Part shown: piece after piece, positions 1 to 30,723 of the stretch
Layout: each line of letters opens with the position of its first letter
Numbering within the stretch: position 1 is the stretch's first letter
Source of the DNA: a virus
Virus record (IMG/VR): IMGVR_UViG_3300024982_000006
Coordinates: 1 to 41,094 of that record
DNA: 41,094 bases
Strand: one strand, 5' to 3'
Notes under the pieces: generated by a model
What the model saw: only the letters and a program-made list of their open reading frames with translations
Database searches by the model: none
What the model was told of the DNA's origin: nothing
Program-made: the position numbers and the translations under genes

Positions 1-3000
1 AGTCGCACGCTTGTTCTGGTTGGTGAATGCGGATTCACCCATGATAGCCACGATACGGCCGCCAGGCTTCAGTAGCGTGTAGGCGTGCTGCACATGCTGG
101 ATGTCCCTGCCATCACTGAATGGCGGGTTCATCAGAATTCGGTCATATCCGCTGTTGCCAGCCCGTTTTTCAATGCCTGTCAGGCTGTCACGGTCATGCC
201 ATTGACTGGTGCGCGCGTCAGGCTGACCATTGGCGTCAAGTGGATCAAGTCCAACCCTGTTACTTCCGAGACCACCAGACCCACGCATAACACCAAGCGT
301 TCCATCCTTTGCGCGAAACACGTCACCATAAGTGAAGCCGCGTGGGCTCATTTCCATGAAGTCCCGGCTAACTACATTGAAACCCTTTGCCTCCAGCAGT
401 TCGCGCCGGTCATTGGACATTTCCCCGACATCAGGGTCAACCCCAGCGGCCCGGATGCGCTCGGCAATGTGACCCCAACCCGCGCTTGGCTCCAACACGG
501 CCATGCCTGGCTCAATGCCAGCGGTGTCCACCATTTCATCGGCCACGCTCTCTGGCGTTGGGAAGAAGTCCATTCCGTCATTGCGCCGGCCAATCATGGC
601 GCGCTCAAGTTCTTTTACCTTGCTGGGCGTAGCAGCCTGTTCCTGCAAACCTATGAACTCGCGTAGAGCGGAGCGGAACTCGGCCGGCGTCTCGATGCCC
701 ATGCGGGCCAGCAGCTTGCGCCGGTCGTGCGCCGTCTCCAGTTGCCACGGAACCGATACCTTGGCGCCACGGCGCGCGGCCTTGCCGATCTTCTCCACCA
801 ACTCCGCGCCGGTGTCTGGGTGCAGGGTCAGACGCTTGTCACCGTCGCCCTTCCATATACCGCGTTCAACGGCCTCGCTCGGGCTCAGAATCACCGCGTG
901 TTCGCCGCGCTTGACCTGGTAGGCAATCGCCTTGCCTTTGTAGCCACTGCGGGCAATGGCGGCCTCGGCGTCAGCCTTGGTGCCAAACGCCGCCACACCA
1001 CCGCCACGCGAACTGAATGCCGACACTTTTACGAAATTCTCCTTCGCAAACTTCGTGTAGGCGTCCGTCACATCATCGGCTTCTTTCAGCAATCGCTGAC
1101 CAAGCATCTTGGTCCCATCAACCTCCAGCAACTGACGCGCCAGCGTGGCCAAGTCAGAGCGATAGGCGGTGAAAGTCGGGAACTCGGCAAAGTCTGCCGT
1201 TTCTGCCGTCGGCGCCTCCCAACGGTGCTTTTCCTGATCAGCATAGCTTTCGTACTTTGCGCGCAGCTCTTCGCCTTTGGCTGTGGTGACATAGCTCTGT
1301 AGCGCTTCGACTTGAACCTTCTGCCGCACCCGGTCCAGGAACTTGGCCTTGCCATCCGCGATGGCTTGAGCGATGTTGCGCATGGTCTGTGCCATGGCTT
1401 TCTCGGCATTGGCAGCGGCTTCCGCGCTGGCAGCTTGGCGCGCCCGCTTTTCGGTGTTGGCCTTGCGTTCCTGACCCAAACTTGCGCTGGCGCGCTCGTC
1501 CAGCCTATCGGCCATTTCATTCAGGCGTTCGGTGGCGCTCTGGCTGCGATCATCGGCGAACGAATCGCGGCGCTCCTGCATCACGTCCTTGGCGGCAGTT
1601 GTGTCACCAGCGATCAGCGCCTTGAATGCCTTGGCTGCGTCCTCGGTGCGGAACTGCCATCCCGGAATGGCACCATTGCCACGGTAGCTAGAGTAATCCC
1701 CGCCCAGGCGCTTTGCCTGCGCCACCAGCGATTTGAATTCGTCGCCCGACACACGCTGTTCCAGGTTGAACTGCCACAGATCGTGCCCATGCTTGGTGTG
1801 CTTGGTCTGGATGATCTCGCTTGCCGTCACGGCTTCACCCGGGGCACGCAGGATGGCGTCCTGCTGGGCTTCTTTACGGGATGCGCGCTCGGCCCGGCTT
1901 GACGTTGCGGTCATGTCATCGTACTTTGCGCGCTGCGCCGGCGTGAGCATCAGGCGTGCCTCCTTGAAGGTCTTGCCGGTACTCTTGGTTGCGCGAATCA
2001 GGTTATGAAAATCATCTAGGGTCTGCGGGTCCTTGATGGCCTCGGCAACCTTGGCCACACGGGAGACGGCTTCTTCCTGCGCGCTTTTGCGGTCCTTGGC
2101 GTACTGGGCCAGTTGTTCGGTGTCGGTCTTCTCCACCATATTGCGCACGCCGTCGAGCCAAGCATTCTTGCCCATGCCGTGAGAAAAGCTGCGCGCCAGC
2201 ACGTACTGATTCGCGCCATCTCGCCACAGCGCTTCGACAATTTCCGGTTTTGTTTCCGACTTGTTGCGGTAGGCGAACATGCTGCCGCCCATTTTCAACA
2301 GATCATCCTTCTTGTTCTTGGCCAGCGCCGCCAGGATGTCGGCCTTGCTGCTCACCCAGCGTTCAAACCCCGCTTTGAATTCGTCTACCGTGGCCGTGCC
2401 GTCAGTGATGCGGCTCCACAGTGCTGTTTCGGCGTCGAGGATGTCGGCTGGCTCCACCGTGCCCGCTGGCTGCGCGCCATCATGCGCCGGCCCTGCGTCC
2501 TTGATGTCAATCCCAGCTTCGCTCAATGCTTGCACCATTTGGGCGTGTGCATGGTACGGCCAACCAACCATAGGTTCACCGCCTCGGCTCTTGGTAAGAG
2601 TCAACCCAAGGATGCGGGACACCTCTTTTGCGTCGTTTCCGATGACTTCAAAAAAGTCGCCAATCTTGACCGTTTCCAGCGTCTTTCGTGGCTTCTGTAT
2701 TGGCTGGTCGGCGTCCTTGATTTCTGGCGCGGGTTTGGCTACACTTGTACCCGACCCCTCCGCAGGCTGGTCGCCCAACCCATCGGCTTTGGTCGATGAA
2801 GCGGCCCCAGAGATACCGGAGGGGCTTTTGTTTTTGAGGATGAAGTAATCGGAGCGGTCCTGATCTCTCTTCTGCTGGATAGCGTTGTCCTTGGCTTCAC
2901 GCGCCGCACGAATTCGCTCCAACCCCGGCTTGGCTACCGGTGCGGCTGCTGGCTTTGCTTCGGGCGCGGCTGCCACGCCATCGCTTGCTGCGGGCTTGGC

Positions 3001-5421
3001 AGGGTTGGTAGCTGGTCCTGCCGCTTGTTGTTGCGCAGTTGCTTCGACGGCTTTTGGGGCTTTCTCACTGGGTTGCTCCTGGGGTTGAGAGACTTTCGAT
3101 TTCACGTCCCAGCGGGTTGCGCTGGTCTTGACGGCTTGATGGGTGTCTTTGAGACCGTTCTGAGCGATGAACTGCTGGGCCTCCAGGCCATTGCTGAAAT
3201 AGGCGCTGCCTTTGGCAATGCGCTCGATGGCCTTGGCGCGCTTCTGATCATCTGATTGCGATTCTCTATTCGAAGGAGTACCATCAACTGATGAACTCTG
3301 ACCAGAACTCTGACGCACAGTACCCTGGCTTCGCGCGGATTCAACTGTTTTCAGGGGAGCGGCCTGCGAAGGTGGATTCACCTGTGCCTGCTGAGTCGCA
3401 CCTTGGGGTGTTTTATCTTGCGATGCCTGACCAGTCCCCGATGTTGTCTGGTCTACCCCAGCACCTTCCACGGTAGCGCTTCCGGCATTGGGCAGTCCCT
3501 CGGCGGTGGCTGCATCTCCCGCCACAACTGCTGGCGCTTCTCCCGCCTGCGCTGCTGGCGTGGTGTTGGTTCCTGGTGGTGCGTTTTGGACACGGGTAAC
3601 GTCCTTCGCGGTGAATCCTGGTCCTGCCGTGGCAGTGGTTTGTGTGCCCAGTGTGGTTGGTTGCGCGCGGCCGGCGGCTACTGGCGCTGCATCAGTTCGC
3701 TTGGGCAGTTCACCAGATTGACCCAGCACACCAGCAACAGGTCGGCTTTGCTTGGCTCCAGCTCCTGATCCATCAACTGGTCCAGGTGCCACGCTTGCCG
3801 TGCTGTCAGCCCGCCCAGCCGGTACGACTCCTGAACCAGCGGACTGAACTCCATTTTTTGGGCCATTGGCATCCTTGCGTCGTGCGACAAAGCCGTCTTG
3901 CACCTGGGCGATAGTCCAGTCCTTGCCCTCCATGTTGGCGCGCCGGGCCGCCGCCAGACGGTTCGGGTAGGGCTTGCCCAATCCATTCAGGATGTCGCCA
4001 TCCAGTGTTCCCTTGTACTGGATTCCTCCGTCTGCAACTGTCTGGTTGCTGAACAGCACCGCGCGCTTGTCCTCTGGCGACATCGCGGCTTCGGCAATCG
4101 GACCATGGGTGATAGGCTTGGTGGCGGTGTCCAGTTCTGCGGCCTGGCGGTCCTGCTCTGCCGTGGCCTGCTCGTAGGCCGCTTGGTCGGCTTCATTGGC
4201 CTGCTGGAGCTGGATTTCCTGATGCGCGCCAGTATCCACGGCAGTGACGGCTGCGGCGCTGATAGGTCCGGCGGCCGGGTCCAGGCCCATGGCCTCGGAT
4301 GGTTTGACGACAGGCTCCGGCGTTCCAGGCTGCGGTGCCAGTCCCATCATCTTGGCGCGCGCTGCCGGCTGCTGTTCTGCTGGCAGGCTGTTGATGTAGG
4401 CGTCGATCTCCGAGCGCCTTGCTACCGTGCCATCGGGAAACGACAGGTAGGGGTCTGGCGTGTTCCCGATCTGCAATGCAGGCGCAGCCGGTTCTGGCGC
4501 GGCCTCTGGAACAGGCGCAGTTTCACCGACATGCGACACCACGTTGGCGCCACCACCCATCACGGCGCCGGCCAGCATGCCTTGCGCACCCGCCTTGGCT
4601 GCGCCTTCGTCCCATGGTTTGCCCTGGGCGATGTTCTGCGCAACCTGCTCTTGGTAGGACTGCGGCAGTTCTTGCAGAACGCCCTCGTTTGCCATGCCTT
4701 CTGCCAACTTGCGCACGACACCCTTGCCCGCTGCGGCCTTGGCGGCTTCCTCGCCGACAACACCGGCCTTGCCAGAAGCCAGCATGGTTTGTACGTCGCC
4801 AATGCCCAACTTGTTGGCCAGCTTTCCGGATGCCAGCGAGATTCCACCAGTCAGGGCGCCGGATGCCGCCAGCACAGCGGATTGCTCTGGCGTCAATAGA
4901 CCGGTGGGGGATTCCTGGCGTACCTGTTCGGCGTTCTGTCCGGCCGATACCAAACCTTCTCCGGCTGCGCCGGCCGCAATGGCTCCGAGCTTGGGCGCTA
5001 CTTTCAGTAACCCGCGCGCCGCCGCGCCACCGCCGATCATGGAGGGCGCCGACTCCATCACAGATCCAGCGATGGTCGACGGGTTCCGAACCATGGCGCC
5101 AATGGTCGGCAGGAAACCATCTGCCTGGGCTACTTCCTGGTCTGCCGCCTTCTGTTCAGGAGACAGGTACTCGCCCATGATCTGTTTGGCGTCCTTGAAA
5201 CGCACGCCAGCGGATTCGGCCAGTTTCCCGGCGCGGCCTCCCGTCACCAGATCGGCAACGCCTACCGCCGCCTCTGGCACGCCCACCACGCCTTGCGCGA
5301 GCTTGATGCCCTGATCGGCAATGCGGCGGATGGCGCCGGATGGTTTTGGAGTATCGGGACCAAGAAAGCCGTCAATCTCGGACGACTGTTGACCGTCCAA
5401 GAAGTCGTTGATCTCGCTCAT
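1..5421 (-). CDS. Giant polyvalent virion protein with MutS-I-like and N6-adenine methyltransferase domains (C-terminus outside window)
   Basis: The frame is open for 1807 codons from the ATG at 5421 to the left edge, so the true protein is longer. Residues 1-380 are Ala/Gly-rich with hydrophobic stretches (about 115-270), suiting a protein that passes through the tail. Residues 560-900 are a low-complexity Pro/Ala/Gln linker. Residues 919-973 (starting KIGDFFEVIGNDAKE) resemble the MutS domain I fold, a known module of phage polyvalent proteins. A charged helical region follows (about 1080-1500). From about 1620 comes a DNA methyltransferase: FFPTPESVADEM, SAM-binding motif EPSAGWG (1644-1650) and catalytic NPPF (1765-1768), typical of N6-adenine enzymes. 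Such proteins are packaged and co-injected to protect incoming DNA. The ATG overlaps the upstream stop as ATGA. Host DNA protection is inferred. Confidence 0.85.
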   Translation of the reverse strand, partial: MSEINDFLDGQQSSEIDGFLGPDTPKPSGAIRRIADQGIKLAQGVVGVPEAAVGVADLVTGGRAGKLAESAGVRFKDAKQIMGEYLSPEQKAADQEVAQADGFLPTIGAMVRNPSTIAGSVMESAPSMIGGGAAARGLLKVAPKLGAIAAGAAGEGLVSAGQNAEQVRQESPTGLLTPEQSAVLAASGALTGGISLASGKLANKLGIGDVQTMLASGKAGVVGEEAAKAAAGKGVVRKLAEGMANEGVLQELPQSYQEQVAQNIAQGKPWDEGAAKAGAQGMLAGAVMGGGANVVSHVGETAPVPEAAPEPAAPALQIGNTPDPYLSFPDGTVARRSEIDAYINSLPAEQQPAARAKMMGLAPQPGTPEPVVKPSEAMGLDPAAGPISAAAVTAVDTGAHQEIQLQQANEADQAAYEQATAEQDRQAAELDTATKPITHGPIAEAAMSPEDKRAVLFSNQTVADGGIQYKGTLDGDILNGLGKPYPNRLAAARRANMEGKDWTIAQVQDGFVARRKDANGPKNGVQSAGSGVVPAGRADSTASVAPGPVDGSGAGAKQSRPVAGVLGQSGELPKRTDAAPVAAGRAQPTTLGTQTTATAGPGFTAKDVTRVQNAPPGTNTTPAAQAGEAPAVVAGDAATAEGLPNAGSATVEGAGVDQTTSGTGQASQDKTPQGATQQAQVNPPSQAAPLKTVESARSQGTVRQSSGQSSSVDGTPSNRESQSDDQKRAKAIERIAKGSAYFSNGLEAQQFIAQNGLKDTHQAVKTSATRWDVKSKVSQPQEQPSEKAPKAVEATAQQQAAGPATNPAKPAASDGVAAAPEAKPAAAPVAKPGLERIRAAREAKDNAIQQKRDQDRSDYFILKNKSPSGISGAASSTKADGLGDQPAEGSGTSVAKPAPEIKDADQPIQKPRKTLETVKIGDFFEVIGNDAKEVSRILGLTLTKSRGGEPMVGWPYHAHAQMVQALSEAGIDIKDAGPAHDGAQPAGTVEPADILDAETALWSRITDGTATVDEFKAGFERWVSSKADILAALAKNKKDDLLKMGGSMFAYRNKSETKPEIVEALWRDGANQYVLARSFSHGMGKNAWLDGVRNMVEKTDTEQLAQYAKDRKSAQEEAVSRVAKVAEAIKDPQTLDDFHNLIRATKSTGKTFKEARLMLTPAQRAKYDDMTATSSRAERASRKEAQQDAILRAPGEAVTASEIIQTKHTKHGHDLWQFNLEQRVSGDEFKSLVAQAKRLGGDYSSYRGNGAIPGWQFRTEDAAKAFKALIAGDTTAAKDVMQERRDSFADDRSQSATERLNEMADRLDERASASLGQERKANTEKRARQAASAEAAANAEKAMAQTMRNIAQAIADGKAKFLDRVRQKVQVEALQSYVTTAKGEELRAKYESYADQEKHRWEAPTAETADFAEFPTFTAYRSDLATLARQLLEVDGTKMLGQRLLKEADDVTDAYTKFAKENFVKVSAFSSRGGGVAAFGTKADAEAAIARSGYKGKAIAYQVKRGEHAVILSPSEAVERGIWKGDGDKRLTLHPDTGAELVEKIGKAARRGAKVSVPWQLETAHDRRKLLARMGIETPAEFRSALREFIGLQEQAATPSKVKELERAMIGRRNDGMDFFPTPESVADEMVDTAGIEPGMAVLEPSAGWGHIAERIRAAGVDPDVGEMSNDRRELLEAKGFNVVSRDFMEMSPRGFTYGDVFRAKDGTLGVMRGSGGLGSNRVGLDPLDANGQPDARTSQWHDRDSLTGIEKRAGNSGYDRILMNPPFSDGRDIQHVQHAYTLLKPGGRIVAIMGESAFTNQNKRAT

Positions 5422-9178: not shown

Positions 9179-10780
9179 TCAGATTCTCCTTGAGAGTTTG
9201 GCGACCTTGAAGTCGATGGAGTCAACAGCCAGTTCACCCGAGCCGTTGGCACCGAACGCGTAGTAGCGGTGGTCCCGGATTCCTTTGCCGAATTTCTGCC
9301 GGTAGTTCTGTGCCAGCTCGCCGCGCGGTGTCGTGTAGTGGTAGGCCTGTGTCTGCTCACCCTCGCCGGCGTACAGGGTCATCGTCGCGGCTGGTCCGAG
9401 TCTTCCGCCAAGGTAAGCCGACTCGATGGTCTTGAACTCCGGGTAGCCGAAGTCCGTCACCGCTGTCTTGAATGCCCACGGGATAGCGGTCGGTGTCGCC
9501 GCGTAGTCCGTGGTGCCTTCCAGCAGATACAGCCCTGTCTCATTGGCTCCGAAGTAGCTGTTCTGGTAGCGCACGATGTGGGTGAATGGAAAGTTGGTAT
9601 AGCGCGTCACTTCGTCGGGCGACTCGCCTGTGTGCTTGATGTTGACAGCGTAGGCTTCATAGGTGGCTGTCACCGTAGCCGTCCCGATGGCCGTCAGGGT
9701 CATCTCCGGCAAGACAATCCAGGCAGTTCCGGTCGGCGAGGCCATCAGCGCAGGCAGCGTCAACTCGGCGCTTCCGGAATCCTCCCGCGTCCCCGTTGCA
9801 ACCAACTCGAACAGCGGCAGCGTCATGGCGGCGTCGCCGGTTGCCCCGGTGAGGCCGGTTGCCGCCATGCCAAGAATTCCTATCGTCACGGAGCAGACCG
9901 CGCCGGAATAGCCGACCATGTCCAGCATAGGAAGTGTCGTATTCGACTTCCCAACGTCCGGTACAAGCCCGGTCCCTGCCCCAGCAAGGCTTGGTAGCGT
10001 CAGCTCGGCAATGCCCCACCCTTCCGTGATGCCGTCGCCAGAGAATGTCAGCGCCGGCAGTGTCGAGTTCGAGTTGGCACCCCCGAATCCCGCCAAAGTC
10101 AGCGCCGGCAGCGTCTGGATGACAGAGTTCTCGTCTACCGTCTCGTGCCCGGAACCGAATGCGGTTATCGCCGGCAGTACCGATGCCAGGTTGCTGCCAC
10201 CAGAGCCGACGAAGCTGAGCATCGGCAAGGTATTGTTCGAATTGATGGCGCCATAGCCCACCCCGGACATCGCCGGCAGATCGACAACCACCGACCCGCC
10301 CATGTCGCCGGTCACAAGCAGCATCGGAAGCGACTTGTTCAGTATCCCGGTGCTGGGCGGCATCTGGAAATACTCGGTGGAGATGCCTATCGCCGTATTT
10401 GCGGATGCAAAGGTTTGCCACAGAACCCAAGTAACGGCATCGTCAGAGTACGAGAAATATCCCGCCACCGGGTTGTTGGCCGTGCTGTTTCCGTTGACGA
10501 TGGTGATCGAGTTGATTTCTTGCTCGTTGCCGGCACCAAAGTCCCAATACACCCAGCCTGGAGCCGCAGCAGAGGAGTTCCAGTAGGTCGCAGAATTGGA
10601 GTCGAAAAGCTTGCTACCCTCATACCCGACAGAGGAGAATGAGCTTTCCGTCGCCGTGCCATTCCCGGTTGTGGCCAGGTTGGTACCGCCGCTCGTTGTG
10701 CGCAGCTCAAGGCCTGCAAACAGGATGGTGGTCGAGGTTACGTTGGAGACGTAGACTCGCCAGTAACGATGTGCTGCCAT
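9179..10780 (-). CDS. Tail-tip or fibre protein with discoidin-like domain and LPxL beta repeats
   Basis: This 533-aa protein starts at an ATG with AGGGGGA upstream. Residues 1-140 look like an F5/8-type-C (discoidin) galactose-binding-like domain: RYWRVYV, then LFDSNSATYWNSS, then WVYWDFG. Residues 145-365 carry about ten short repeats of the form LPxLxxxGxG, such as TLPALTLAGFGG, suggesting a beta-solenoid. Residues 370-533 form a separate globular domain with many Tyr residues (YAGEGEQTQAYHY). The layout fits a receptor- or polysaccharide-contacting tail protein. It is immediately downstream of the 785-aa tail protein (10 nt gap). Confidence 0.65.
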   Translation of the reverse strand: MAAHRYWRVYVSNVTSTTILFAGLELRTTSGGTNLATTGNGTATESSFSSVGYEGSKLFDSNSATYWNSSAAAPGWVYWDFGAGNEQEINSITIVNGNSTANNPVAGYFSYSDDAVTWVLWQTFASANTAIGISTEYFQMPPSTGILNKSLPMLLVTGDMGGSVVVDLPAMSGVGYGAINSNNTLPMLSFVGSGGSNLASVLPAITAFGSGHETVDENSVIQTLPALTLAGFGGANSNSTLPALTFSGDGITEGWGIAELTLPSLAGAGTGLVPDVGKSNTTLPMLDMVGYSGAVCSVTIGILGMAATGLTGATGDAAMTLPLFELVATGTREDSGSAELTLPALMASPTGTAWIVLPEMTLTAIGTATVTATYEAYAVNIKHTGESPDEVTRYTNFPFTHIVRYQNSYFGANETGLYLLEGTTDYAATPTAIPWAFKTAVTDFGYPEFKTIESAYLGGRLGPAATMTLYAGEGEQTQAYHYTTPRGELAQNYRQKFGKGIRDHRYYAFGANGSGELAVDSIDFKVAKLSRRI

Positions 10781-15370: not shown

Positions 15371-18220
15371 TCATTGCACGTAAATGTCCGTGCCGGATGG
15401 AGTGGACAGCACAGACAGATACTGGCTGACAGGGGCGCTCAACACCGATATGTCGGCGACGAAGTTCCGCACCGACGCGCCGCCGCCAAGGCTATGGGCA
15501 TAGAACACCGTCGTATTGCCGAACAGTCCCGGCAACAAGGAGACTGCGCCCGTTGCAACCGTCGCCGAATAGAAGGCGTTGAGATTGCTCAGGATGCTCG
15601 GCAGAAGTGTCGACCCGGCGTCGGTGACGGTCGGGGAATGGAATGTGTTGGTGTTGCTGACAAGAGAAGGCGTGAGGTCCACCGCACCAGCCCCTACCGT
15701 TGGCACGTGGAACAGCTGCGTATTGCTGAACAGGCCCGGGGCAACCGTCACGCCACCAACCGAGATCGAGGCAGCGTAGAAGACTGGCGCATTGGTGAAC
15801 AGATCAGGCGCCAATAGGAACCCAACCGTGATGGTTGCGCCGTAGAAGGTCGTCGAGTTGGTGACAAGTGATGGAGTCAGATCAACGGCGCCAACCGATA
15901 CGGTCGGAGCGTGGAAAGTGCTGGTATTCGTCACCAGCCCTGGTAGAACAGCAGGCCAGGCGCCGTCCGCAAACAGGTCCGACACTGACTTGATGACTGT
16001 CGCACCGTAATCCTTTGTCTGCGTCTCCGTCCATGTCAGGTCACGGGATGACTCAATGAAGGTTGCCAGCGGCGCTTTCCTGGTTCCATTTGCCCAGTAG
16101 CAGCTGGAATCAACTGGGTTATCACCAAAGGTGGTAATGCCGGCTGTGTAGACCAGCATCTTTGTCAGGAACGTCGAATAGAACGGCGATCCGGAGTAGA
16201 TGAAGTTCCCAGAATATCCGCCATGGAAATCGAAGAACGCCGCCACATTCTTGGTGCCCAAGTCGGTCGTGATGGCCGCCATCGTCTTGGTAGTGGACTC
16301 AATACCCGGCGTGGTTACCCAATGCCTGTTGGTGTCGTAGGTTGGGTTGACGGAATTGAAGTCACCGCGCCAGTGGCCGCCGTAGCGCCCCATTGGGTTG
16401 GTCATCGGGTAGATGAACCACTCGAAGTTCTTGCGCGCCGCAATAGCCTTGGCATCACTGCCGCACAGGAACTCCACCGCGCCCTGCAACATCCAGTTGC
16501 CAACGTCCTCGCTGGCATGTTGTCCGGCGATCATCACAGCTACGCGCTTTGCAGATCCGTCGGCGGGCTGCTGCGTGTCGTCGCTGATGCGCAGCGAATA
16601 CAGAGGCTGCGCCGGTATCGTGCGCCCGCGTTCGTCGGTCTGGGTGCCCATGGTGTCGGACACGTAGGACAACCCCGCCGAACTTGGCGGCATGGAGACG
16701 TAGGATGAATACGTGGATGCCAAGGAAGAAACCAGCGCTGCGGTCATCGTTCCCGTGTACGGCCGAATGCTGCAAACCCATACCGTGTCGCTGGTGAAAT
16801 CCGCGTTTTCCTTGAAGTCGATGTTGAGGTTGTCGCCGCTCAGCGCATGGGTGTCGAAGTAGTTCCATGTGACCTGGTCGTAGGACCACATGAAGCGCTG
16901 GCTGGACTGGAAAAACCAGCGGTCCAGGATGGTGGTGCTGGGCGTCTCGTAATACCTGACTTTCCAATTCGGCCGCTTGCCAAGCAGGCCCGTCACCCGG
17001 GCGTGGAACACCTCATAGCCTGGCGTGCCAGGGACGTTTTCACTGACCTGCAGGCGCGGGTAGATGCGGATGGTCGGCGCGTAATAGTCCTGGTCGATGC
17101 TGGACGCGCTGATGTTGATGTTGCCGCGCTCGTGATCGTCATGAAACTCGACCACCAGAATGACGGTAGGCGCATAGAAGCTGTTGGTGTTGGTGAACAA
17201 TGAGGGCGTCAGTCCCACCGATCCCATCGTCACCGTGGCAGCATGGAAGTTGCTGGAGTTCGTCAGCAGGCTCGGAGCGAGATTGAAATCACCTTGCGAA
17301 ACCGTTGCTGCATAGAAACTGTTGGAGTTCGTAACCAGCGACGGCGTGAGTCCTACCGCTCCGACTCCAACCGTCGCAGCATAGAACGTGTTGGTATTGG
17401 TGAAAAGACTTGGCGTCAGCGTCACGCCAGACGTAGCGGTATTCCTGCGATCCGCCATCAACGCAACCCGATGGGGATTCTCAAATAGCAGTTTGTGCTC
17501 GTTGGCGGTAAGACCTGATTCCGGGTGATCAAAGATCAGCTTCGGTCCCAGCATGCCGTCCCAACCGCGAATTCCGTCGGTGGAGCGGTTGCCGATGTCC
17601 AGCGTGATGCTGGCGGTTTGATAGTTTCCGGTCGAGGCCGTGACGACGCTGGTCGATACCACGGCGCCGTTTTTGTACATGGCCGGCGTGTTTCCCACCG
17701 TGCGCTGGTCGTGCGTGGAGCCGTAGCCAACCCAGGCGCTGAGCACCGGGGCACCAGAGATCGCCCACGCCCCGTTGGCTGCGTCGGTCACGCGCTGGTA
17801 AAGAATCTCGTAGCTGCTGGCTGACGAGATATACCAGCTCTCATCGCCAATGGTGTTGCCGGCCTTGCCGGCTGGCTGCATGATGCGGCCCAGATTGCCG
17901 CCGCCGTAGCCGTTGGCATAGCTGAACAGCAGCCAGGACCGGATGCCGCTCGCCGGGTCCAGCGACGGGCCATCGGTGCGGTCGGTGGTGCCCGTGCCGT
18001 GTGTCGTGCCGTAGCCTTTGACTGCGCCGTACTTCGCGGTGGTCTGCAGCTTGGGCGGGCCTACCCGGCTGGACGTGCCCTGCCAGCCGCCCTTTTTTGT
18101 CCAGATCCAGCCGTTGCCAACGTCGTACAGGACCAGCCCGCGCTTGAGCCAATACGGGTCAAGGGGGACCGGCCCGCTCGGCTGGGTTGTCCGAATGGTC
18201 TTGCGGCGCTTCACGGCCAT
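15371..18220 (-). CDS. Tail fibre with LamG-like N-terminus and embedded M14-type zinc carboxypeptidase flanked by 22-residue repeats
   Basis: This 949-aa protein starts MAVKRRKTIRTT. Residues 25-250 resemble a LamG/concanavalin-like domain (LKRGLVLYD, later GLTANEHKLLFENPHR). Residues 267-355 are four copies of a repeat of the form LTPSLxTNxxxFYAATVxxG. Residues 370-750 contain an M14 metallocarboxypeptidase pattern: zinc ligands H568 and E571 (GQHASED) and H666 (DFHGG), substrate-binding N631-R632, and putative catalytic E732 (TWTET). Spacing is close to carboxypeptidase A and cytosolic-carboxypeptidase-like enzymes. Seven more repeats (about 757-916) follow. Such an enzyme could trim peptides or peptide cross-links at the cell surface during adsorption, or act on a surface protein. 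The substrate is not known. Confidence 0.8.
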   Translation of the reverse strand: MAVKRRKTIRTTQPSGPVPLDPYWLKRGLVLYDVGNGWIWTKKGGWQGTSSRVGPPKLQTTAKYGAVKGYGTTHGTGTTDRTDGPSLDPASGIRSWLLFSYANGYGGGNLGRIMQPAGKAGNTIGDESWYISSASSYEILYQRVTDAANGAWAISGAPVLSAWVGYGSTHDQRTVGNTPAMYKNGAVVSTSVVTASTGNYQTASITLDIGNRSTDGIRGWDGMLGPKLIFDHPESGLTANEHKLLFENPHRVALMADRRNTATSGVTLTPSLFTNTNTFYAATVGVGAVGLTPSLVTNSNSFYAATVSQGDFNLAPSLLTNSSNFHAATVTMGSVGLTPSLFTNTNSFYAPTVILVVEFHDDHERGNINISASSIDQDYYAPTIRIYPRLQVSENVPGTPGYEVFHARVTGLLGKRPNWKVRYYETPSTTILDRWFFQSSQRFMWSYDQVTWNYFDTHALSGDNLNIDFKENADFTSDTVWVCSIRPYTGTMTAALVSSLASTYSSYVSMPPSSAGLSYVSDTMGTQTDERGRTIPAQPLYSLRISDDTQQPADGSAKRVAVMIAGQHASEDVGNWMLQGAVEFLCGSDAKAIAARKNFEWFIYPMTNPMGRYGGHWRGDFNSVNPTYDTNRHWVTTPGIESTTKTMAAITTDLGTKNVAAFFDFHGGYSGNFIYSGSPFYSTFLTKMLVYTAGITTFGDNPVDSSCYWANGTRKAPLATFIESSRDLTWTETQTKDYGATVIKSVSDLFADGAWPAVLPGLVTNTSTFHAPTVSVGAVDLTPSLVTNSTTFYGATITVGFLLAPDLFTNAPVFYAASISVGGVTVAPGLFSNTQLFHVPTVGAGAVDLTPSLVSNTNTFHSPTVTDAGSTLLPSILSNLNAFYSATVATGAVSLLPGLFGNTTVFYAHSLGGGASVRNFVADISVLSAPVSQYLSVLSTPSGTDIYVQ

Positions 18221-18229
18221 GAGGCGGAC

Positions 18230-18718
18230 CTAGTAGGTGATGGCTTCGTACCAGCACTGACCACCCGCGCTGGCGGTGGCGTTGAGGGCCTGCACCATGC
18301 TGTGCGTCACGAACACGACATACCGGTGCGGGCACTTGCCGAAGACAGATTCCAGATCGACACCGCCGAACTCGTAAATTCTGTTTGCGGTGGCGTCCGT
18401 CTCGAATGTCTTGATGCATTGGCCAGACTGGATCAGCACGTTGCGGTAGGTGACAGTCTCCGCTGAACTGGTTCCGTCGAAAACATCGGGGTAAGTGGCC
18501 GTGCCTCCAATGTCCCAGACAGGGATAACCCAGACCTCCAGCTTTCCGGCCGTGGGCGCGGTGTTGTTGGCCTTGAAGCGTCCCGACAGGATGTGGGTGT
18601 CAGCCGCATTGGTGATGACGGCCGACTCCCAACCGGCGACCCATGTGCTGCTGCTGGCCAGGCTGTCAAGGTCGGTCGAGCCGAAGATGGCAACGCCATT
18701 GGCGTAGGCGGTGGTCAT
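18230..18718 (-). CDS. Small virion structural protein
   Basis: This 162-aa protein has a clear AAGGA site before the ATG. It is beta-rich (WVAGWESAVI, GKLEVWVIPVWDIGGTATYPD) and contains three Cys. Ten nucleotides separate it from the fibre gene. It belongs to a run of three similar-sized beta-rich proteins between the head-tail connectors and the fibre. I infer a tail or fibre-attachment role; no family was recognised. Confidence 0.6.
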   Translation of the reverse strand: MTTAYANGVAIFGSTDLDSLASSSTWVAGWESAVITNAADTHILSGRFKANNTAPTAGKLEVWVIPVWDIGGTATYPDVFDGTSSAETVTYRNVLIQSGQCIKTFETDATANRIYEFGGVDLESVFGKCPHRYVVFVTHSMVQALNATASAGGQCWYEAITY

Positions 18719-18727
18719 GGCCGGTCC

Positions 18728-19144
18728 TTACAGCGTGAAGATGCCGGATGCATTCCACGTGATCGTGATGTTCCCGCCATTGGGAGTCACCGGAAGCCCG
18801 GTCACACCGGTGTCGATGTAGGCAATCAACGGCCAGGTGGTGTTGGCGCCGGCGTTCTTGCGGTACAGCACGATGGCCTCGCACGTAGCGCCAGTCACGG
18901 CCGTGTAGGTCAGATCGGTACCATCGAATGTTCCCGTCACCTGCGTCTTGGTCAGAATCTCCTGGTCTGTCCCAACCACGCCAGACAGCGAACTGTAGAA
19001 CTGATGCGCGGCGCTGTAGGTGTAGGTGCCGGTGTCGACCAGCGCCGCATAGACGCCGGTTGCTCCTTCGGCGGAATTGAGCAGGTTGTTCGAAGTCCCC
19101 TTGAGGATTTCTTGCTTCCAGAGTGGGTAGAGTGCGTTGGCCAT
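18728..19144 (-). CDS. Small virion structural protein
   Basis: This 138-aa protein starts MANALYPLWKQEILKG after AAGGAG. The opening is a type often seen in small tail-associated phage proteins, and the rest is beta-rich (TWPLIAYIDTGVTGLPVTPNG). It is the middle member of a three-gene run with gaps of 9 nt on each side. Function beyond virion structure cannot be stated. Confidence 0.6.
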   Translation of the reverse strand: MANALYPLWKQEILKGTSNNLLNSAEGATGVYAALVDTGTYTYSAAHQFYSSLSGVVGTDQEILTKTQVTGTFDGTDLTYTAVTGATCEAIVLYRKNAGANTTWPLIAYIDTGVTGLPVTPNGGNITITWNASGIFTL

Positions 19145-30228: not shown

Positions 30229-30273
30229 ATCTTCGTCATGTCGCTACTTCGCATCAATCCTTAGTGGGGGGGT
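30229..30273 (-). promoter_or_regulatory. Late-module promoter-like box, copy 5 of 5 (divergent)
   Basis: The box at 30255-30273 reads ACCCCCCCACTAAGGATTG and contains the stop codon of the zinc-ribbon gene. The TTGATG at 30257-30252, 17-bp spacer and GAAGAT at 30234-30229 keep the arrangement of the other copies but match consensus poorly. It may instead be an activator site for the promoter at 30195-30223, lying roughly 70-85 bp upstream of that start. Confidence 0.45.
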
Positions 30274-30521
30274 GGATGCTGGAGAACTCCGTTCCGCATG
30301 TTCCAGCGTGCAACCGCAGCTTCTTTGCTGGCTGATGGCACCTGATCCATACAGCAGGAGCCTCCGTGGTTGATCGTATTGCGGCATGTCACACCGTACC
30401 AATACCGGTCTCCGTTCTTGTCGCCGTACATTCTGCCGAACGTCACGTTCGCCAATTCAAGCTGCACGGGTCCACCGCAGAACGGACATGGCAAAAGCGG
30501 GGTTTCTTGCTCAATGTTCAT
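30261..30521 (-). CDS. Lar-like zinc-ribbon protein (restriction alleviation family)
   Basis: This 86-aa protein starts MNIEQETPLLPCPFCGGPVQ at the ATG at 30521, preceded by AGGGAG; a longer reading overlaps the neighbour and is rejected. It shows the family pattern CPFCGG, then YGVTCRN, then GGSC, then a C-terminal SKEAAVARWNMR. Rac-prophage Lar relieves type I restriction in the host; many relatives are untested. Its stop codon lies in promoter box 5, so it ends the early operon. Confidence 0.75.
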   Translation of the reverse strand: MNIEQETPLLPCPFCGGPVQLELANVTFGRMYGDKNGDRYWYGVTCRNTINHGGSCCMDQVPSASKEAAVARWNMRNGVLQHPPPH

Positions 30522-30522
30522 T

Positions 30523-30723
30523 TCACGCGCTCCCTGCTGGGTTGGGGTTGTCCGGGTCGTGCAAGTCAGCAATGGCCTTGGCTGCCCGCTCCCTGGCCAC
30601 CACGGCTTCATAGAAGCGAAGCAGGTTGGTATAGCTGAAATAGCAGAGGACGTCATTCACCCATTCCATGCCGCATTGGCGTGCCAGGGCTTGGAGTTCA
30701 GGCTTGGTCAGTTCTGCGCTCAT
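30523..30723 (-). CDS. Small early protein, unknown
   Basis: This 66-aa helical protein starts MSAELTKPELQALARQCGME. The start chosen overlaps the upstream stop (ATGA); a start four codons earlier is possible. It ends one base before the Lar-like start (TGAAATG). The amphipathic helices and one Cys give no family. It probably acts in host takeover like other small genes in this run; this is inference. Confidence 0.55.
   Translation of the reverse strand: MSAELTKPELQALARQCGMEWVNDVLCYFSYTNLLRFYEAVVARERAAKAIADLHDPDNPNPAGSA

Follow-up and report, generated by a model that had tools for sequence, protein, structure and literature searches.

A CCP-like M14 metallocarboxypeptidase domain between two repeat arrays in a putative phage tail fibre

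Where phage fibres are known to be enzymatic, their targets are mostly polysaccharides or peptidoglycan. The locus studied here raises the question of what a peptidase of the M14 family could do in a fibre-type protein, placed between two arrays of short repeats. The gene lies in a 41-kb IMG/VR contig, here called the window (the whole stretch analysed, 41,094 nucleotides), which also contains a terminase, a portal, a major head protein and an Hc3-type gene. The head protein of the capsid is 50-56% identical to those of the Pseudomonas phages 8P and H66, and the phage is a podovirus with capsid genes resembling the 8P/H66-type phages. The fibre gene is located between the virion structural genes and the Hc3-type gene. 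Its coordinates (Table 1) are exactly those of a preliminary description of the sequence, and it encodes 949 residues on the minus strand. That description had proposed a tail-type protein in which an M14 metallocarboxypeptidase stands between two arrays of repeats. Pfam, the repeats, the match to PHROG 8501 and the fold search all support this proposal.

Relatives were sought among the contigs with a related head protein and by an alignment search, the latter yielding L082. The same plan of head, repeats, enzyme and repeats is found in two further uncultivated phage contigs, L016 and L082, and since these are independent contigs, we judge an assembly artefact to be an unlikely source of the plan. 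A second contig (L008) ends in a stretch that encodes the first 25 residues of the protein with 100% identity.

Table 1. Features of the fibre gene and of its two cassette partners, with positions in the window, strand and supporting evidence.
Feature	Position	Strand	Evidence
Tail-fibre-type protein, 949 aa: head, 4 repeats, CCP-like M14 enzyme, 7 repeats, short C-terminal tail	15371..18220	-	Same layout in the L016 and L082 homologues
N-terminal head, residues 1-258	17447..18220	-	50% identity to L016 head; without Pfam match
First array, four 23-residue repeats, residues 267-358	17147..17422	-	Repeat pattern; PHROG 8501 match on the related second array
Putative CCP-type N-terminal domain, residues ~361-525, contains P487-Y488-T489 (CCP motif III)	16646..17140	-	Alignments; VIA-align with CCPs
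M14 catalytic domain, residues ~526-755	15956..16645	-	Pfam PF00246; PDB sequence matches to CCPs; fold search
Zinc-ligand motif H568-A-S-E571	16508..16519	-	H and E invariant in three phages and bacterial CCPs
R618, equivalent of BcCCP Arg226 / CPA Arg127	16367..16369	-	Alignments; PMC3940198
N631-R632, predicted substrate-carboxylate binding pair	16325..16330	-	Alignments; PMC3940198
H666, predicted third zinc ligand, in DFHGGY	16223..16225	-	Alignments
E723, most likely catalytic general base	16052..16054	-	Invariant in three phages; follows model strand; T-x-E in relatives
Second array, seven repeats, residues 757-916	15473..15952	-	Repeat pattern; PHROG 8501 E 1.9e-10
162-aa cassette partner directly upstream of fibre gene	18230..18718	-	Homologue at same position in L016 (3e-86) and L082 (4e-15)
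138-aa cassette partner, PHROG 644	18728..19144	-	L082 homologue lies two genes upstream of its enzyme gene (2e-62); L029 also has one

The repeats start at residues 267, 290, 313 and 336 before the enzyme and at residues 757, 780, 802, 825, 848, 871 and 894 after it. A pattern written from the repeats matches the protein 11 times, against a maximum of 0 across 2000 shuffles, so the repeats do not arise by chance. The search bears out the four and seven copies counted earlier, and the repeats are regular, with the period, first given as 22 residues, being slightly longer: 23 residues, and 22 at one place only. The consensus is tLtPSLfTNTntFYAATVgvGaV, and the mean pairwise identity of the repeats is 46%. 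PHROG 8501, which matches the second array, is described as 'minor tail protein', and the same 23-residue repeat family occurs in gp68 of the Pseudanabaena phage Pam2, where the likeness to the window protein is confined to the repeats. From these repeats, the position of the gene and the kept neighbouring genes we infer that the protein is a tail fibre, in which the repeats would form the shaft.

The head of the window protein has no match in Pfam, even at an E-value of 5. The L082 head, located at the same place, matches Laminin_G_3 (PF13385, E 3e-8), and the two heads are not convincingly alignable; the LamG-like fold that the preliminary description gave to the window head is suspected. 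An NCBIfam match to QatD at residues 243-300 was set aside as a chance match.

Peptidase_M14 (PF00246) is the one domain that Pfam finds in the protein, at residues 530-635 (E 7.3e-11; 42.6 bits, cut-off 21.6), and the enzymes of L016 and L082 are also above the Pfam M14 cut-off. Among the solved structures, the best sequence matches of the window enzyme are, in order, 4b6z (E 3.5e-9), 3k2k, 3l2n, the eukaryotic CCP5 and 4a37. A profile of the three phage domains finds the same CCP families. The bacterial members of this list, BcCCP of B. cenocepacia (4b6z), BmCCP (3k2k), SdCCP (3l2n) and PaCCP (4a37), belong to M14D and share an N-terminal beta domain followed by an M14 catalytic domain with the phage protein. 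However, they are cytosolic, stand-alone enzymes, whereas the phage form is found inside a fibre-type protein between repeats.

A first AlphaFold model, made from the three phage sequences with no bacterial rows, has a mean pLDDT of 43 and is too weak to be used alone. All 12 Foldseek matches of this model at E < 0.001 are CCPs. The second model has a mean pLDDT of 50, rising to 70-88 in parts of the catalytic core, and took in two bacterial CCP rows, so it is not fully independent of the CCPs. With VIA-align, it superposes on BcCCP with a Z-score of 20.1 and an rmsd of 4.5 over 308 residues, compared with a Z-score of about 15 for CPA and CPB, which mostly cover the catalytic half only. The alignments to 4b6z and 3l2n (Z about 20, rmsd 4.5-4.8) span model residues 3-389 and thus include the CCP-specific N-terminal domain, in a half of the model with low pLDDT. 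The CCP-only Foldseek matches and the difference in Z-scores make it most likely that residues 361-755 form a divergent version of the two-domain CCP arrangement. We reject a classical CPA, CPB or CPT subtype, as the CCPs score higher and also cover the N-terminal domain. The enzyme had been described as a generic M14 carboxypeptidase; the family holds, while both sequence and fold matches place the subtype as CCP-like.

In BcCCP, zinc is bound by His171, Glu174 and His268 and the substrate by Arg226, Asn235 and Arg236, with Glu344 as the base (PMC3940198). Judged from the alignments, the equivalents in the window are H568, E571 and H666, then R618, N631 and R632, and finally E723, and each of these is the same residue in all three phage domains, whose overall identity is about 30%. 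The preliminary description had listed H568, E571, N631-R632, H666 and E732 as the M14 set and had made the proposal depend on these residues clustering around a metal site. All of them are present. The proposal was judged by fold and alignment: the core has an M14 fold, and the predicted ligands align with those of solved CCPs.

The zinc ligands and N631-R632 of that set are retained, and E732 is not. We prefer E723 to E732 as the catalytic base because E732 is replaced by D in both phage relatives and is placed at the start of the last helix in the model, whereas E723 is invariant and adjoins the end of a strand (353-357 in the numbering of the second model), where the sequences end in TFIE or VTHE. 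In both relatives, the equivalent glutamate has a T-x-E setting (VTHE), as in CPA and BcCCP. E723 is thus most likely the catalytic glutamate, placed solely by conservation among the phages and position at the strand. A five-row MAFFT alignment (A6) sets E732 against the TVE motif of the bacterial enzymes, but given its helix position and the D in the relatives we judge this to be a gap artefact.

Several motifs of the bacterial CCPs are lost in the phage form. The HPGE zinc motif is replaced by HASE in the window and by HGGE or HAGE in the relatives, and the NPDG motif by NPMG and NAPG, respectively. Because these two motifs are not kept, we file the enzyme as CCP-like M14 (M14D-like) and not as a CCP. 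The N-domain of the CCPs is characterised by the motifs F(D/E)xGx(L/I) (I), W(F/Y)(Y/N)(F/Y) (II) and P(F/Y)(S/T) (III) (PMC3940198). Motif I is nearly kept (HERGNI in the window, FERSSV in L016), motif II is lost in the window (VFHA), and motif III is present in the window (PYT, 487-489) and absent from the relatives.

The degenerate HASE and NPMG motifs could also mean that the M14 fold is catalytically dead, or a mere lectin-like binding module that recognises a C-terminus or carboxylate on a host receptor. Fibres work mainly by binding, and inactive metallopeptidase homologues are known (review PMC11266112). However, the zinc ligands, R618, N631-R632 and the glutamate base are invariant in three domains that are 30-51% identical to one another, as expected under selection for catalysis, and we regard a dead or purely binding domain as quite unlikely.

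The specificity is harder to read. The S1' site of bacterial CCPs is fitted for acidic residues, and the deglutamylase activity of BcCCP is itself low (PMC3940198). Counting 14 residues back from E723 without gaps, as from Glu344 to Lys330 in BcCCP, leads to W709 in the window, where the relatives have F or Y. Provided that this stretch is free of gaps, the pocket at S1' seems to differ from the acidic-substrate pocket proposed for the bacterial CCPs, which we take as a lead: the Lys/Asn of the bacterial enzymes is probably aromatic here, and this would argue against a simple glutamate specificity.

The acid-suited S1' site of the bacterial enzymes (PMC3940198) would fit another reading, in which the fibre degrades a surface polyamino acid or an amino-acid-decorated polysaccharide, like the phage poly-gamma-glutamate hydrolases (PghP). 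PghP and PghL, zinc enzymes of phage origin, have a carboxypeptidase-like fold and clear away a barrier of poly-glutamate (PMC6506827). However, PghL has other residues at the Arg and Asn-Arg set kept here (PMC6506827), the phage residues near S1' look aromatic, and the phage is without a link to any poly-glutamate producer. We consider this reading very unlikely.

The relatives show how the protein is assembled. In L016, a 993-aa protein at the same place contains a related enzyme, and the pair aligns with 34% identity over 800 columns. There (L016:14644-17625) unrelated repeats of the TDALSLADSAS type flank the enzyme on both sides, i.e. the repeats are swapped and the plan is kept. The 857-aa protein of L082 consists of a LamG head, three repeats, the enzyme and three repeats, in a T7-type contig, whose fibre and internal virion protein genes are of that type. 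At L082:6047-9575 a cassette of a 142-aa protein, a 174-aa protein and the enzyme fibre directly precedes the T7-type tail fibre gene. Two contigs of a related phage (L028 and L029) have at the equivalent locus a 379-aa protein with the repeat family of the window and without the enzyme; a Pfam match to TMEM43 on the L029 repeats was set aside as a chance match. Given these layouts and the kept neighbouring genes, the head, the enzyme and the repeats each act as a module of their own, and unlike phages have a three-gene cassette in common. Enzyme and spacer repeats are thus swapped independently in the design of these fibres.

The viral contig scans used exact peptide patterns, and three phages with this plan is therefore a lower bound. 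In INPHARED no close homologue of the enzyme was found, the only match being a weak one to BUCT702 from the L082 domain, and the scans of genome contigs gave no match. Phage 8P, related by its head protein, has nothing comparable annotated at the site, so not every member of the group needs the gene.

The preliminary description called the arrangement unusual, which holds in part only. For M14 domains as such it is overstated, because they are already annotated in tail or receptor-binding modules of Staphylococcus, Bacillus and Stenotrophomonas phages, in dozens of records; a tblastn search with the M14 domain of Stenotrophomonas phage BUCT702 alone finds 38 phage records. As predicted for the window, Staphylococcus phage StB20 carries the domain in a tail protein (orf55, 'tail protein, Zn carboxypeptidase'), whose N-terminus matches solved receptor-binding proteins of staphylococcal phages (6v8i, 5efv), and BUCT702, Bacillus phage Pony and Acinetobacter phage AbIPP1 have M14 in or beside the tail module. 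However, the StB20 enzyme resembles carboxypeptidase A/B/M/T structures, that of BUCT702 resembles MpaA and carboxypeptidase B, and that of Pony, encoded beside its tailspike, resembles carboxypeptidase T. None of these three, the tested proteins with solved-structure matches, has a CCP match; the AbIPP1 protein has no match to a solved structure. For Clostridium phage phiCP24R, the review PMC9234517 describes a zinc carboxypeptidase domain that was reported as new to viruses, and lists it among the genes of a picovirus with lytic domains. The phage collection yielded no CCP-like enzyme, and the literature search no paper that connects CCPs with phages. The two-domain CCP-like type between two repeat arrays, common to three phages, appears to be an undescribed variant.

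Virion peptidoglycan hydrolases are common, and the domain might be a virion-associated peptidase of the M14C-like type that cleaves peptidoglycan stem peptides after contact with the outer membrane and aids DNA entry. M14C enzymes process cell-wall peptides (PMC3940198), and the MpaA-like M14 protein of BUCT702 is encoded close to lysis genes. However, the nearest relatives of the window enzyme are CCPs, not M14C enzymes or MpaA, and the domain is part of a repeat-spaced fibre-type protein rather than a tape measure or an injected protein. This makes a peptidoglycan target unlikely.

The reading we favour, with moderate confidence, is an active zinc metallocarboxypeptidase of the CCP-like type, displayed by the virion on the repeat shaft of a tail fibre, which trims the C-termini of host-surface peptides during adsorption. 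The protein would be mounted on the virion tail of the podovirus, with the head or the tail part anchoring the fibre or binding the host, and the beta-type 23-residue repeats on both sides would space the enzyme as a shaft. The enzyme would then clip at least one residue off the C-terminus of a host-surface peptide or protein, and this trimming may loosen a barrier or expose a receptor. Such a role in adsorption, also suggested in the preliminary description, is plausible. That three unlike phages keep a CCP-like enzyme with its active site, on repeat shafts that can be exchanged, suggests that the trimming of peptide ends at the host surface is also part of what phages do.

A more specific version, which we regard as rather unlikely, is a mobile cassette whose CCP-type enzyme edits the C-terminus of one particular host surface protein (pilin, flagellin or an outer-membrane protein) in receptor engagement. 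If true, the editing of surface-protein C-termini would be the first task of the CCP group outside the cell and in an infection. The phage enzyme offers a testable route to the substrates of the bacterial CCP-type enzymes.

Rfam and tRNA scans of the window found no match. Elsewhere in the window, the virion structural protein encoded at 9179-10780 (-) has an F5/8 type C (discoidin-like) domain close to its N-terminus and is possibly a second surface-binding protein of the virion. At 30261-30656 (-) there is a sub-threshold match to PF14354, the restriction alleviation protein Lar (E 1.6e-5; 25.5 bits, cut-off 28.6). A giant ORF at 1-5421 (-), cut by the end of the window and at least 1807 aa long, matches the phage giant-protein families PHROG 11358 and PHROG 15406 ('DNA methyltransferase') and, at residues 911-974, MutS domain I (PF01624, E 4e-8).
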